This document shows, in pieces, positions 9,988 through 55,037 of a stretch of 64,000 bases of DNA; the stretch's first letter is position 1; each line of letters starts with the position of its first letter. The translations under genes were made by a program, and so were the position numbers. Source of the DNA: Ponticoccus alexandrii (GTDB lineage: Bacteria; Pseudomonadota; Alphaproteobacteria; Rhodobacterales; Rhodobacteraceae); assembly GCF_016806125.1 (NCBI RefSeq), contig NZ_CP047166.1, forward strand, positions 1,984,001 to 2,048,000, read 5' to 3'. A model generated the notes under the pieces. That model was not told where the DNA came from and ran no database searches. It saw only the letters and a program-made list of their open reading frames with translations.

Positions 9988-10009
9988 AATATTGACCGTG
10001 GTCAATATT
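9988..10009. promoter_or_regulatory. TetR operator 1
   Basis: Palindrome with 10-bp arms AATATTGACC and GGTCAATATT around GT. It lies 19 bp upstream of the tetR start codon, where a bound repressor would block tetR transcription. It shares the TGACC/GGTCA core with operator 2. Confidence 0.75.
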
Positions 10010-21707: not shown

Positions 21708-21791
21708 ATCGGGTCGCGCCTGCGGCGCGATGAAAGGTCCGGGGGACCTTTCACGATGCGAACGGGCGGAGCCCGGGATCGGGTCGCGCCT
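21708..21791. repeat. 14-bp direct repeat enclosing a palindrome
   Basis: ATCGGGTCGCGCCT occurs at 21708-21721 and again at 21778-21791, exactly 70 bp apart. Between them is a perfect inverted repeat TGAAAGGTCC-ggg-GGACCTTTCA (21731-21753). The palindrome centre TCC-NNN-GGA matches that of segments inserted in the IS3 transposases at 50988 and 54485. It starts 3 bp after the phoB stop and might end that transcript. Confidence 0.7.
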
Positions 21792-49876: not shown

Positions 49877-50776
49877 TCATAACGAGAGTCTGCAGGTTGG
49901 ATCTGGGTATTCGGTTTCCCCGTTTGGCGCAAGCGCGCCGGGCGCGGAGCCCTCTAATTGCTCAAGCGCTCGGCGCGCTTGCTGTGGTGTCTGGTTGCCC
50001 AGGGAAGAGTGCGGCCTGACCGTGTTGTAGTCGTAGCGCCAGAGGGCGAGCTTTCGCCGCGCATCGTCCAGACTGTCGAATATCTCCTCGTTCAGAAGTT
50101 CGTCCCGGAGGCTTCCGTTGAAGCTTTCGATGAAAGCGTTTTGCTGGGGCTTACCCGGATCGATGTAATGCCACGGCACGGTATTCCCATCGGCCCATTT
50201 CAGGACGGCCCGACTGGTGAACTCAGTTCCATTATCACTGACAATGCAGCCGGGTTTGCCGTAGATCCGGATCAGTGCGCTGAGCTCGCGCGCGACTCGT
50301 GCGCCGGAGAGGCTGGTATCGGCAACCAAGCCCAGGCATTCCCGGGTGCAATCGTCGATCACCGCCAAAATCCGAAATTTTCGCGACGCACCGAAGCTAT
50401 CGGACACGAAGTCCAAGGACCAGCGTGCATTGGGATACGCGGCGCCAGGCATCGGTGTCCTTGTCCCGCGCGCCCGTTTCCGGCCACGTCGTCGCTTCAC
50501 GGACAAACCCTCTTCCCGGTAGATCCGGTAAAGTTTCTTGTGGTTCATGCTCATGCCCTTGCGTTCCAGCAGCACCCCGATCCGGCGGTAGCCGAACCGA
50601 CGTCGCTTGCCGGCGATCTCCTGCATCTCCTTGCGGATCTCGGCACAGTCCGGCGGGCGTTCACGCCGGACTGTCCTTGGATCGACACCAACCAGCTTGC
50701 ACGCTCTGCGCTGCGAGATGTCATGATCCCGCATCACTCGGAGCGCCGCGTCTCGCCGCTTCGTCAATGTCGTCAA
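49877..50776 (-). CDS. IS3 transposase, OrfB (DDE integrase)
   Basis: 299 residues. HTH_21 region [22 protein letters not shown] residues are in [20 protein letters not shown] and [19 protein letters not shown]. The reading frame is complete, with the ATG overlapping the orfA stop (ATGA). Normal OrfAB production needs intact OrfA, which is broken here. Confidence 0.92.
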
Positions 50777-51079
50777 CTCTTTCCCAGCAGGTCTTTCAGA
50801 ACCACGTTGTCCAGCATGGTATCGGCCAGTAGCCGCTTGAGCTTGGCATTCTCGTCTTCCAGCGCCTTCAGCCTTGCCGCCTCGGACACTTCCATCCCGC
50901 CATACTTAGCTTTCAGCTTGTAGAACGTCGCCGTGCTTAGGCCATGCCTGCGGCACACCTCGGCGGTGGGCATACCGTTCTGCGCTACGATTGATCCACT
51001 GGATCAATCGCTTAACGCTTGAACCCTGTTCCTTGATCATCCCAATGATTTGCGCCTCGGTAAAACGGCTCTTTCGCAT
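50773..51079 (-). pseudogene. IS3 OrfA, disrupted by a palindromic segment
   Basis: The ATG at 51079 begins MRKSRFTEAQIIGMIKEQ, the usual OrfA start. The usual continuation (MPTAEVCRRHGLSTATFYKL ... [16 protein letters not shown]) resumes only at 50973 in another frame. Between them are 52 bases (50974-51025) where about 9 are expected. The result is a frameshift inside the HTH-bearing region. Confidence 0.8.
50974..51025. repeat. Palindromic insert A in IS3 OrfA
   Basis: 52 bp foreign to OrfA. The core is CGATTGATCC-act-GGATCAATCG (50988-51010), a perfect 10-bp inverted repeat with a 3-base centre. The outer parts are imperfectly complementary (GTTC...GAAC). Net gain about 43 bp. Confidence 0.7.
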
Positions 51080-51215
51080 CTGTCTGCTCCTTCAAAAGGT
51101 TGAGCAAACTCTACATCAGAACGAGGGAAGTTCCGGGGGCAGGTCAAAGGCGCTCGAGGACGAGAACACCCGGCTGAAGAAGATCGTGGCTGATCTGACG
51201 CTGGATCGGGAGATG

Positions 51216-51260
51216 GCGAGCCATTGTCCGCCATTGGTCCGAGGACAATGGCGAGCGGAG
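51216..51260. repeat. Palindromic insert B at the OrfA end of IS3 element 2
   Basis: 45 bp in place of about 9 (the usual MLQDVIRRKL becomes M, 15 foreign residues, VIRRKL). Core CGCCATTG...CAATGGCG (51230-51254) around TCC-ga-GGA. The net gain is a multiple of three, so the frame survives. Confidence 0.6.
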
Positions 51261-51511
51261 GTGATCCGCCGAAAGCTCTGAAGCCTGGGCGTCTGCGAGA
51301 GATCGTGACCGGGTTGTGCGTCGACTGGGGCGTGTCGATAAGGAAGGCTTGTGGAGCCATCAGCTTCGACACGTCCAGCGACCACTACAAGTCCCGGCGG
51401 ACGCACCAGGCTGCCGTCGAAAGGCGGATCAAGGAGATCTGCGAGACCCGCGTGCGGTATGGCTATCGCCGTGTGCATGTCTTGCTTCGGCGAGAAGGTT
51501 GGATCATCAAC

Positions 51512-51555
51512 CGCTGCCCGACAGGGCATTGCAAAGCAATGTCCCGAGAGGGATG
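51512..51555. repeat. Palindromic insert C in OrfB of IS3 element 2
   Basis: 44 bp between the codons for IIN and KKARRIYNELG. Core GGGCATTGC-aaa-GCAATGTCC (51524-51544), 9-bp arms with one G-T pair and a 3-base centre. Causes a frameshift and an early stop. Confidence 0.65.
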
Positions 51556-51579
51556 AAGAAGGCCCGCAGGATTTACAAT

Positions 51580-51588
51580 GAGTTGGGG
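51580..51588. repeat. IS21 target duplication, left copy
   Basis: GAGTTGGGG directly before the IS21 left end. The same nine bases follow its right end at 54085-54093. Confidence 0.9.
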
Positions 51589-51660
51589 TGTTGGATGTCA
51601 CTGAGAACTGACCCAGCATTGTCATCGAGATTTGACCCGCCTGTCAGTATGTCTGTCGGT

Positions 51661-52452
51661 TCATGATGGGGTCAACATTGGCGTCTCCTTCCTCTTCTTT
51701 TTCGCGGTTTCCGAGCTGGCCTTGAAGCGATAGCTGTCGTTTCCGGTTTCCAGGATGTGGCAGCGGTGCGTGAGGCGATCGAGGAGCGCGGTGGTCATCT
51801 TGGCGTCGCCAAAGACGCTGGCCCATTCGCTGAAGCTCAGGTTCGTGGTGATCACGACACTGGTGCGTTCGTAGAGTTTACTGAGGAGGTGGAACAGCAA
51901 GGCGCCGCCCGAAGCGCTGAATGGCAGGTATCCGAGTTCGTCGAGGATCACCAATTCGGTTTTCACCAAGGCCTCGGCGATTTTCCCGGCCCTTCCCAGC
52001 GCTTTTTCCTGTTCCAGCGCGTTCACCAGCTCGACCGTGGAGAAGAAGCGCACACGTTTGCGGTGATGCTCGATCGCCTGGACCCCGAGGGCGGTCGCCA
52101 CATGGCTTTTCCCGGTGCCGGGCCCGCCAATCAGGACCACATTCTCGGCGGCGTCCAGGAACTCGCATCGATGAAGCTGCCGGACGAGGGCTTCGTTGAC
52201 CTCGCTGGCCGCGAAGTCGAAGCCCGACAGGTCCTTGTGGGCTGGGAACCGCGCTGCCTTCATGTGATAGGAGATGGACCGCACTTCACGTTCTGCCATT
52301 TCGGCCTTCAGCAGCTGCGACAGGATGGGGATCGCCGCGTCGAACGCAGGCGCGCCCTGTTCCATGAGGTCATGCACGGCTTGGGCCATGCCTGGCATCT
52401 TCAGACTGCGGAGCATGATAACGATGGCAGCGCCGGCGGGATCATGACGCAT
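51661..52452 (-). CDS. istB: IS21 helper ATPase IstB
   Basis: 263 residues from the ATG at 52452. AAA+ ATPase with Walker [14 protein letters not shown] and Walker [13 protein letters not shown]; sensor region [12 protein letters not shown]. Helps IstA choose and join the target. Overlaps istA by 11 bp. Confidence 0.95.
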
Positions 52453-53971
52453 GGCGTTTGCCTCCGGATGTGCGCAGCCCATCGTAGCGTGCGACATTGG
52501 CCTCGGGCTCTTTCGTCAAAACAAGCCTTGAAGGCGGCGTCACGTCGGGCTGGTCAGTCGGCGTGCCATCCACCAGCCTATGGAGCAGGTTCAACACGTG
52601 GGTCTTTGTCGGCACGCCTGCCTGCAGTGCCATGTTCACCGCGCACAGCACGACTTGCTCGTCGTGATGCAACACCAGGGACAAGATTTCCACCATCTCT
52701 CGATCGCCGCCGGGTTTGCGCAGCAGTTTGTCCTGCAACTGGCGGAATGCCTCCGGCATCTCGATAAACGGGGCGCCGTTGCGCAGCGCGCCCGGCTTGC
52801 GCTGGACCACAGCAAGGTAATGGTGCCAATCATAGATGACTCGGCCCGGTTGCCGATGCGACCTTTCAATGATGCGCTGGTGCTCGCAAACGACGTGCCC
52901 TTCGGCAACGATAACAAGCCTTTCGGGGTAGATATGCAGGCTGACGGGCTGGTTCGCAAAACTGGCAGGCACGGAGTAGCAATTACGATCAAACGTGATG
53001 AGGCAGGTTGGGGACACCCGCTTGCGTTGCTCGACATAGCCGTCGAATGCCGTGGGCAATGGCATCAACGAGGACTTCTCGGCTTCCCAGACGTCCGCGA
53101 TGCTGCCGGGCAAGGCGCCATGTGTGGTCTCGGCCCACAGCGCCTTGCACCGTTCTTCCAGCCAGCGGTTCAGCGCATCGAGATCCGAGAAAGTGGGCAT
53201 CACCTGCCACATCCGGCTGCGCGCATCGCGGACGTTCTTCTCGACCTGGCCCTTCTCCCATCCTGCAGCCGGATTGCAGAAGCCGGGTTCGAACACGTAG
53301 TGGCTGGTCATCGCCATGAAGCGCGCATTCACGTCGCGCTTCTTGCCGACGCCCACGCGGTCGACAGCAGTCCTCATGTTATCGTAGATCCCACGACCCG
53401 GCACGCCTTCGAAGACCCTGAACGCGTGCCAGTGCGCGTCGAACAGCATCTCATGTGTCTGCAGCAAATACGCCCTGACCAAGAACGCGCGGCTGTGCGA
53501 CAGCTTGATGTGTGCGACCTGCAGCTTGGTCCGTTCACCCCCGATGATCGCGTAGTCTTCGCTCCAATCGAATTGGAAAGCCTCGCCCGGCTTGAACACC
53601 AGAGGCACGAATGTCCCGCGATCCGTCGTGTTCTGCGCGCGCTGCCGGTCCGATTTCCAGGCTCGGACAAAGGCCGAGACCCGCTCGTAGGACCCGTCGA
53701 ACCCCAGCTGAACCAGATCCGCGTGCATCTGCTTCGCCGTCCGTCGCTCCTTGCGCGATTTGCGCTGTTCGGACAGCAACCAGCCCGATAGCTTCTCCGC
53801 GTACGGGTCAAGCTTGCTCGGCCTCGATGGCGCTTTGAACTTGGGCTCCACGATCCCCGCGCGCAGGTAACGCCTGATTGTATTGCGCGACAAACCAGTC
53901 CGCCGCGAAATCTCGCGGATGGGCAACTTATCCCGAAGTGCCCAACCTCGAATGACGCTCAAAATATCCAT
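52442..53971 (-). CDS. istA: IS21 transposase IstA
   Basis: 509 residues from the ATG at 53971 (a longer frame starts at 53998). N-terminal [27 protein letters not shown] catalytic residues in [25 protein letters not shown] and [14 protein letters not shown]. The C-terminal Mu-transposase-like domain follows. Intact. Confidence 0.95.
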
Positions 53972-54084
53972 GTCGATCACTCCAATGACCCCCGACAAAT
54001 CCCGTCAGGGGAAGGGTTCCACATGGGTCAATTCTCAGTGACATTTTCTATCGTGGCTGGGTCAGTTCTCAGTGACATCCAACA

Positions 54085-54093
54085 GAGTTGGGG
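54085..54093. repeat. IS21 target duplication, right copy
   Basis: GAGTTGGGG, identical to 51580-51588. Shows that IS21 entered by transposition after IS3 element 2 was already in place. Confidence 0.9.
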
Positions 54094-54474
54094 CTCCAGT
54101 TGCGCAACAAGCACCCGAAGCGCAGGGTGAAGGCAAAGCTGCGGGAAGATCGCCAGGAGGCGGTCGGTCCGAACGATGTCTGGGCAATGGATTTCGTCCA
54201 CGACCAGCTGGCCATGGGCAAGAAGCTCCGTATCCTGACCGTTGTCGATACCCATTCCCGGCTGTGCCCGGCGGCCGATCCCCGCTTCACCTACCGGGGC
54301 GAGGACGTCGTGCAAACGCTGGAGAAGGTCTGCGCCAGGCTCGGCTACCCGAAGACAATTCGGGTCGATAATGGCAGCGAGTTCATCTCGCGTGACCTGG
54401 ACCTATGGGCCTATGCCAACGACGTCACGCTGGACTTCTCACGGCCTGGAAAGCCGACGGATAACGGGTTCATC

Positions 54475-54524
54475 TTGCGTCGGGGCAAACAGTCCCCCGG
54501 ACTGTTTGCAGACCCCTCCTCACG
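54475..54524. repeat. Palindromic insert D at the catalytic Glu of IS3 element 2
   Basis: 50 bp in place of about 6: the usual GFIEAFNSKLR becomes GFI, foreign sequence, then FNSKLR-coding DNA in another frame. Core GCAAACAGTCC-ccc-GGACTGTTTGC (54485-54509), perfect 11-bp arms. It removes the third DDE residue, so the transposase cannot work. Confidence 0.7.
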
Positions 54525-54944
54525 TTCAACAGCAAGCTCCGGTCAGCATGCCTGAACGCCCACTGGTTCATGAGCCTTGCCGACGCCCGCGAAAAGTTGG
54601 AAGATTGGCGTAGACACGACAACGAGGACCGACCTCACAGCGCGATCGGATACAACGTCCCGATCGCCATGCATTATCCCGATGGCGTCACCAGCCCGTC
54701 ATCGTGAGACAGCCGGGAAAATCCAGCTTCCGGCGGTCCAAGGTTGGGGAGCAGTGCAAGTTGGCTCAGACGCTACATCACGGTGAGGAATTTCCCGAGG
54801 GGCAGGTCAACGCGACACCGCTCAGGCTACAGCGAAACGCCGCCCAGCCTGTTTTCGCGATCATATCATGAACGTGAACAGTTCGACCCGCCCAAGGGTG
54901 CCAAGGGTAGAGCACCTCGCGCTCTTCGGTCCCGTGGGCGTTCT

Positions 54945-55037
54945 GTGATTGAGTTGTACAACGACAATCACCCGCACTCAGGGCTGAAGATGCGCTCGCC
55001 TGGCGAGTTCATCTCAGCTCAAACCGCAACCGCCTGA
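54945..55037 (+). pseudogene. C-terminal remnant of a third IS3 transposase
   Basis: Only the last 30 or so residues remain: IELYNDNHPHSGLKMRSPGE, then FISAQTATA and a stop. This matches the C-terminus of IS3-family OrfB (YN..HPH..L..RSP.EF). The preceding 135 bp are not recognisable. It marks the right end of the insertion-sequence pile. Confidence 0.75.

Follow-up and report, generated by a model that had tools for sequence, protein, structure and literature searches.

Small palindromic elements of several kinds have been described in bacterial genomes and in yeast mitochondria. CGTC-tagged repetitive extragenic palindromes (CGTC-REPs) occur chiefly between genes, as HH dimers. They carry a CGTC (or TGTC, CCTC) tag at the foot of one stem side, and their stem has AT in its first two positions, a length of 8-9 bp, a loop of 4-5 and a CCA tail (PMC3733652). 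The intragenic examples listed for CGTC-REPs, a group compared with Rickettsia palindromic elements (RPEs), lie often in genes for DNA synthesis and repair, not in transposases (PMC3733652). GTAG REPs and REPINs are hairpins of 21-65 nt, some of them bulged, that are presumed to be moved in trans (PMC3733652; PMC6006769). The GC42 cluster of yeast mitochondria is a 42-nt palindromic mobile element with filled and empty sites, an unproven mover and a putative AG target duplication (PMC4478555). The present analysis concerns four hairpin segments inside two copies of IS3-type insertion sequences (ISs) in a 64,000-nucleotide stretch of the Ponticoccus alexandrii genome, hereafter the window (C1:1984001-2048000; genome of 5.09 Mb in five contigs). 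These segments look like very small mobile elements of a kind not described before, located mostly inside other mobile elements. They probably represent four families of miniature mobile hairpin elements that are moved in trans and are biased to mobile-element genes.

Hairpin segments in two IS3 copies

The four palindromic segments that an earlier note had reported in the two IS3 copies are all present. Each is inserted into otherwise continuous sequence, and by sequence comparison they are members of four repeat families (A to D) with hosts almost only in Rhodobacterales. Their positions in the window are as follows.

50977-51024, no strand assigned: family D element of 48 bp; host, first IS3 copy, orfA part (L034 alignment)
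51216-51256, plus strand: family C element of 41 bp (net +36); host, second IS3 copy, where relatives have 5 bp
51512-51552, plus strand: family A element, 41 bp in orfB of the second IS3 copy (relatives' alignment)
54475-54523, plus strand: family B element of 49 bp in place of 5 bp; host, second IS3 copy, orfB (relatives' alignment)

The family A segment is a clean insertion, with 0 bp of target lost and no target duplication, and scores 65.8 bits with model R1; the family C segment scores 73.3 bits with model R2. With the ends as set here, the family D segment stands in place of 5 bp (6/6 displayed empty-site homologues), and its DNA fold is -12.6 kcal/mol (z -6.3). At the family B segment, the 5 bp lost are GAGGC, including the GAG codon of the motif DNGFIEAF, which encodes the catalytic Glu of the DDE motif. 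The 3-9 bp that had earlier been estimated as replaced are now 5 (D), 5 (C), 0 (A) and 5 (B), the values for B and D depending on the chosen ends.

The centres of the segments are TCC-ACT-GGA in D, TCC-CCC-GGA in B and TCC-GA-GGA in C, and A has GC-AAA-GC without TCC. When perfect arms of at least 10 bp and a loop of at most 3 bp were required, three centre positions were obtained in 50901-54600, corresponding to the D (two registers) and B hairpins; across 300 first-order Markov sequences, such positions numbered 0.02 on average and at most 2. A comparison of 50500-55000 with Rfam returned only two weak matches far below the gathering scores, to chrB-b at 54480-54542 (E 0.67) and to an IS frameshift element (E 0.49). 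The arms differ among the four segments because these belong to four separate families. The earlier statement that they are not copies of one repeat is correct in this sense, although each family has copies elsewhere.

Filled and empty insertion sites

Junctions were counted from homologous empty sites among all fetched loci, for which 37 C and 139 A loci were tried. Of 22 family C loci, 16 had lost exactly 5 bp of target and four had lost 4 bp; losses of 3 and 6 bp were seen once each. Family A lost no target at 39 of 73 loci and one base at 24, gained one base at eight, and lost 2 and 12 once each. Families B and D each lose 5 bp at two sites (the window and L006 for B, the window and L043 for D), with six homologues displayed at each site and the ends set from those sites. 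Family A follows a BRTC target motif: among 106 distinct flanks, T occupies -2 in 83%, C occupies -1 in 75%, a purine occupies -3 in 93%, and A is absent at -4. By inspection, the neighbours of family C are mostly a purine on the left and mostly G on the right. The earlier proposal of a miniature mobile palindrome is supported, as every segment has a repeat family in which the ends recur and both filled and empty sites exist.

An own-genome pair provides a direct example. A C element is present in locus L003, which is IS481-like by eye, whereas the corresponding place in its paralogue L006 (98% identical) reads CCAAC. The C insertion in L003 is therefore recent. Trees of 13 and 17 rows for one IS5-type site show filled copies interspersed with empty ones, which may reflect repeated independent insertion at one site. 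The fewest changes in these trees are 4 and 5, not fewer than with shuffled labels, and well supported branches force 2 and 4 of them. A third tree site has 4 changes on 13 rows, 2 of them forced. The IS5-type insertion spot lies directly before the aspartate codon of the motif LLIDSTGIKV, presumably the IS5 catalytic aspartate.

The earlier note had named the presence of the segments in relatives as a refuting result, and relatives were aligned for both IS3 copies of the window. Seven relatives of the second copy came from plasmids of Antarctobacter, Paracoccus, Sagittula, Leisingera, Phaeobacter and Thioclava (L036 covers the B site only), and one relative of the first copy came from Pseudosulfitobacter. 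The segments are absent from these relatives at the same places, the exception being segment B in the Antarctobacter copy (L029). There, one stem pair is changed from A-T to C-G on both sides and the next pair is lost. At other places, the Antarctobacter copy also has a C-type and an A-type insert, and a single A-type insert is present in the Leisingera copy. Another copy of the second IS3 element in this genome, at C1 around 3262785 (L002), is 98-99.7% identical to the window copy and also carries segments C, A and B. It keeps the left end that is lost in the window and is without the right end. A sequencing artefact is very unlikely because of this further copy, and an artefact of sequencing or assembly is also rejected on the recurrence of the families in many independent genomes.

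Hairpin structure and covariation

The elements are 41-49 bp long and have no coding capacity. In family A the left foot is CACTGCCCGGCA and the right foot GAGAGGG, and most own-genome copies have a bulged T. A set of 56 distinct 15-nt stem-loops of this family shows pairing at the six stem positions in 96.4% of cells, compared with 75.5% in shuffled data (maximum 80.7%), and stem changes on both sides number 69, compared with a shuffle maximum of 36. In 88 distinct copies of family C, 93.8% of cells are paired versus 81.8% when shuffled, and changes on both sides number 141 versus 32.4, in an alignment that was fitted to the structure of the model and so leans towards pairing. The outermost two pairs of family C, which are the element ends, are formed in 171 of 175 cells (shuffle maximum 128) and include the types GC, AT, CG and TG. 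Arm sequences within families A and C differ between copies by paired changes, while the flanking feet stay conserved.

Distribution of the families

The hosts of these hairpin families are marine and soil bacteria. Among 72,556 plasmid records searched at E<=1, family A matched 50, C 45, B 23 and D 3, mostly from Rhodobacterales. One of the family D records is from Roseibium (Hyphomicrobiales). Chance probably accounts for some of the weakest hits (Moraxella, Kosakonia, Natrinema). At E<=0.1 the P. alexandrii genome has 28 family A matches, of which 20 reach 0.001 or better. A pattern search with the feet and TCCC fixed and the stem and loop free found family A in at least 119 stretches of other genomes in a collection of one genome per species. 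By name, the 80 listed titles are Rhodobacterales or unplaced Alphaproteobacteria, except for two from the actinobacterium Enemella evansiae (L148 and L151), which are possibly due to contamination with Rhodobacterales DNA.

At E<=0.001, matches to family C are present in 132 of the 295 genomes from the same bacterial family, and this genome has eight of them. Some copies are clustered, with seven matches in about 1 kb of L270 and four each in L268 and L277, and pairs of element copies were also observed. Exact CTGCCCGGCAGG sites number 10 in this genome (3 for a control pattern), and five of these lie in known A elements. No half-elements of an autonomous parent were found among the other five: L237 is a further degenerate A copy, and the remaining four are without an element in the 50 bases read. 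Among open-licence PMC papers, at the level of titles and the starts of abstracts, no prior description of families A-D in Rhodobacterales was found.

Location in transposase and phage genes

Locations were classified with a tblastn panel of transposases together with Pfam and NCBIfam; the longest open reading frame, GC3 and a dicodon score gave ambiguous frames. In family A, 103 of 111 sites have transposase sequence within 350 bp when the panel is enlarged by 18 pieces from 14 of the same 111 loci, and 72 of 111 are matched with a panel containing none of them. Of those 14 loci, 13 are supported by Pfam or NCBIfam (the NCBIfam matches being partial and below whole-protein cut-offs) and L127 by eye only. 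With the enlarged panel, matches were obtained at 5 of 103 control positions 3 kb away in the same loci and at 5 of 500 random positions of this genome. Adjacent transposase sequence was found for 24 of the 28 own-genome family A copies, and transposase sequence lies within 350 bp of family C at 26 of 30 and 32 of 40 loci; both later panels hold pieces of six of the 28 A and six of the 30 C loci. The first panel, with none of these loci inside, matched 10 of 28 A and 16 of 30 C at E<=1e-4. The C loci were the best 30 returned and 40 more hand-picked from the list, to which 10 were added later. A loose pattern located the element in seven of these 10, and three of the seven had a panel match. 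At 20 fixed positions in the own-genome stretches, Pfam gave no transposase among the 25 of 26 families listed.

The matched transposases are of the types IS5, IS3, IS21, IS481, IS66, IS256, IS110, IS30 and Tn3, named from annotation (IS3, IS21, IS110, IS256), Pfam (IS5 type, IS66), NCBIfam (IS481, Tn3) or by eye (IS30). For families B and D, several of the seven plasmid hits read have IS annotation beside or under the match. Viral contigs also contain the elements, with A in two stretches, both adjoining IS3 sequence, and C in seven, one of them adjoining IS3 sequence. In the phage terminase gene gpA, family C occupies one site shared by L083, L247 and L249 (Pfam on L083; flanks), and L248 has a C insert at a second gpA-like site, at the motif FLDE..AYP, with the frame kept (by eye). 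C inserts common to one phage gene are found in L244-L246. Separately, a C element was seen by eye at the FIDE motif of an IS630-like transposase in L300.

Copies of family A lie in sense (37) and antisense (66) orientation and in all three codon phases. No orientation rule is drawn from these counts because the copies are not independent. Only 32 of 88 distinct C copies are in frame, assuming a loss of 5 bp, and a reading-frame constraint on C copies is thereby ruled out. Given both orientations and all phases, together with the few C copies that keep the frame, insertion is an event at the DNA level. Of the inactivation process that the earlier note had considered, the action on transposases is supported as a distribution (in family A, 103/111 versus 5/103), but inactivation as a purpose would be conjectural.

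Proposed explanation and alternatives

Each element folds into a stem-loop with conserved foot sequences, and an enzyme acting in trans would place copies at new sites, most likely on a folded single strand or a cruciform. A trans-acting enzyme that recognises the folded hairpin is suggested because the fold and the feet are conserved, the stem sequence is free, the junctions are regular and coding capacity is lacking. Family A is inserted cleanly 3' of a short BRTC-like motif, whereas family C (and B and D at the resolved sites) replaces 5 bp. Such DNA-level insertion would recur at the same sites; it falls mostly in genes of other mobile elements, namely transposases and phage terminase, and usually breaks the reading frame there. 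To our knowledge, the 5-bp replacement fits no described mechanism.

Several results weigh against this explanation. No mobilising enzyme was found in a search of this genome that covered the Y1 transposase and no other enzyme class. The target loss of family A varies (-1, 0, +1), and its 11 pair types are not above those of shuffled data (mean 9.9, maximum 12). Family B shows a loss of 0 with a shorter shared core in L046 and of -3 on a poor alignment in L047 (no empty-site homologue was found for B in L048), and family D shows a loss of 2 in L044 and L045 with the ends used. Because of these deviating values, the 5-bp replacement rule is firm only for family C. The 'filled' rows of the IS5-type trees mix hairpins, with one of seven C-like in the first tree and three of nine non-A in the second; because of such rows, one spot can evidently receive different hairpin families. 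Segment B of the window and that of Antarctobacter may be either independent or inherited (support 44). Loci without a panel match number 8 of 111 and 4 of 28 for A, and 4 of 30, 8 of 40 and, among the later loci, 4 of 7 for C, and a match within 350 bp does not prove that an element lies inside a gene. Finally, mobile-element genes are not the exclusive location: G148, for which 4 of 13 matches were read, has a C-like hairpin within a repeat unit of about 100 bp that looks intergenic.

The bias to mobile elements may stem either from targeting or from extreme survivorship. According to the latter, insertion is random, copies in host genes are purged, and copies in ISs are neutral or even favoured because they silence the IS. 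This is possible but clearly the less probable account. It gains from the broken frames of most C copies and from the crowding of copies in dispensable stretches such as that of L270. However, it predicts well-populated intergenic DNA, and the own-genome A copies lie beside transposases in 24 of 28 cases, as opposed to 5 of 500 random positions (the intergenic share itself is not part of these counts). Targeting is therefore favoured, hairpins being scarce in other DNA, and the bias would then arise at insertion and not by survival alone. Somewhat more speculatively, a Rhodobacterales machinery may install the hairpins specifically in the genes of invading mobile elements, namely phage terminase and transposases from many unrelated families, as a silencing defence, or the hairpins may be parasites that live almost only in parasites. 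A different possibility, which we consider unlikely, is that family A is a non-autonomous element of the IS200/IS605 type (Y1 HUH), moved on single-stranded DNA. Most A copies lack a target duplication, have a 5' target motif and, in this genome, mostly carry a T bulge, so that their insertion rules resemble the IS608 type as described in PMC6006769. Against this, the Y1_Tnp domain (PF01797) has no match in this genome despite the 28 A matches, while 5 of 14 control genomes are positive. Moreover, family C replaces 5 bp, which IS200-type insertion is not known to do.

The remaining alternatives are less probable still. The segments could be REPs or RPEs (the CGTC-tagged REP superfamily) in an unusual location, to which their size, hairpin form and alphaproteobacterial host would conform, as would the CGTC at the stem foot of family B. 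This is improbable, given that A, C and D lack CGTC or GTAG at the 5' foot, that the stem of B does not start with AT pairs and has a loop of 3 and a tail other than CCA, and that REPs are described as mostly intergenic (PMC3733652). The occurrence of both orientations and all phases makes it very unlikely that the hairpin is bypassed in translation or spliced out at the RNA level, leaving a working transposase. What speaks for such a reading is a likeness between 40-50 nt hairpin inserts in genes and the mitochondrial byps. Practically negligible is the hairpin-driven rearrangement that the earlier note had also listed, here taken as template switching from neighbouring sequence: perfect inverted arms could arise in this way, but many species show the same feet, ends and junction rule at sites that are unrelated.

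If the explanation by mobile hairpins placed in trans is true, bacteria harbour several mobile DNA families of about 41-49 bp with no known enzyme. At least one of these follows a 5-bp replacement rule, with a strong preference for other mobile elements, which raises a new question on how ISs and phages are held in check. Ready material for such studies exists in the sites for which an empty homologue was found, 73 for A and 22 for C.

Host elements and other hairpins

The two IS3 copies adjoin each other, and the second is split by an IS21 element. The host features of the window are as follows.

49877-51140, minus strand: first IS3 copy, with orfB at 49877-50776 and orfA pieces to about 51080 (open reading frames and L034 alignment)
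51139-51588, plus strand: truncated left part of the second IS3 copy, carrying the C and A elements (relatives' alignment)
51589-54084, minus strand: IS21 element (istA/istB) that splits the second IS3 copy (open reading frames)
54085-54810, plus strand: right part of the second IS3 copy, carrying the family B element (alignment with relatives and L002)

At its right end the first IS3 copy, which carries the family D element, meets the truncated second copy, as placed by the junction relative to L002, whose homology to the second copy starts at about 51139. The IS21 element is flanked by 9-bp direct repeats GAGTTGGGG at 51580-51588 and 54085-54093.

Other hairpins were also seen. Outside the IS region, a perfect hairpin AATATTGACC-GT-GGTCAATATT lies at 9988-10009 of the window. 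Another, TGAAAGGTCC-GGG-GGACCTTTCA with the flank GAACGGGCGGAGCCC, lies at 21731-21753, and a similar unit occurs in L004; it resembles the intergenic-looking repeat of G148 that holds the C-like hairpin. A fifth hairpin type, GAAAACGATCC-GGG-GGATCGTTTTC, is found at about 1345-1390 of L006, in the IS481-like gene bearing a B element, and also in L003.

Comparison with known systems

None of the families A-D combines all the defining traits of a REP, CGTC-REP, terminal inverted repeat (TIR) miniature inverted-repeat transposable element (MITE), IS200/IS605 element or GC cluster. With RPEs and CGTC-REPs they share a palindromic form, short length, occurrence in Alphaproteobacteria, location inside genes and no dedicated transposase known (PMC3733652). 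The likeness to RPEs that the earlier note had drawn holds in that both insert in genes, but not otherwise. The CGTC tag is present only in family B and absent from A, C and D copies, and the stem of B starts with GGG, has a loop of 3 and ends in the tail TCCTCA, unlike a CGTC-REP. The predominantly intergenic location of CGTC-REPs also fails here, with A at 103/111 and C at 26/30 and 32/40 near transposase sequence (B and D are outside this count). GTAG REPs and REPINs are likewise short, sometimes bulged hairpins with presumed movement in trans. However, the tetranucleotide GTAG/GTGG is absent from the A, B and C consensus and from the 5' foot of D copies, RAYT/Y1_Tnp (PF01797) has no match in this genome, the only non-control genome searched, and families A and C lie mostly beside transposase sequence.

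Family A partly resembles IS200/IS605 elements as described in PMC6006769, in its insertion beside a short motif, mostly without duplication, and in its bulged stem. Its mode of insertion (BRTC motif, loss of 0 at 39/73) varies by one base, and C replaces 5 bp. Moreover, IS200/IS605 elements have left and right hairpin ends, whereas a single hairpin is the whole repeated unit here. Like TIR MITEs, the elements are non-coding and miniature, with pairing ends in C and D. In contrast to MITEs, given as 70-300 bp in PMC3733652, they measure 41-49 bp, and target-site duplication is absent in C and at the resolved B and D sites, with one extra base at 8 of 73 A sites. The yeast mitochondrial GC cluster is the closest working counterpart: it too is a short palindrome with filled and empty sites among relatives. 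It differs in its putative AG target duplication, which has no equivalent here, C having none and replacing 5 bp instead. Taken together, these comparisons place the families outside the compared groups, as a new variant among small mobile palindromes.

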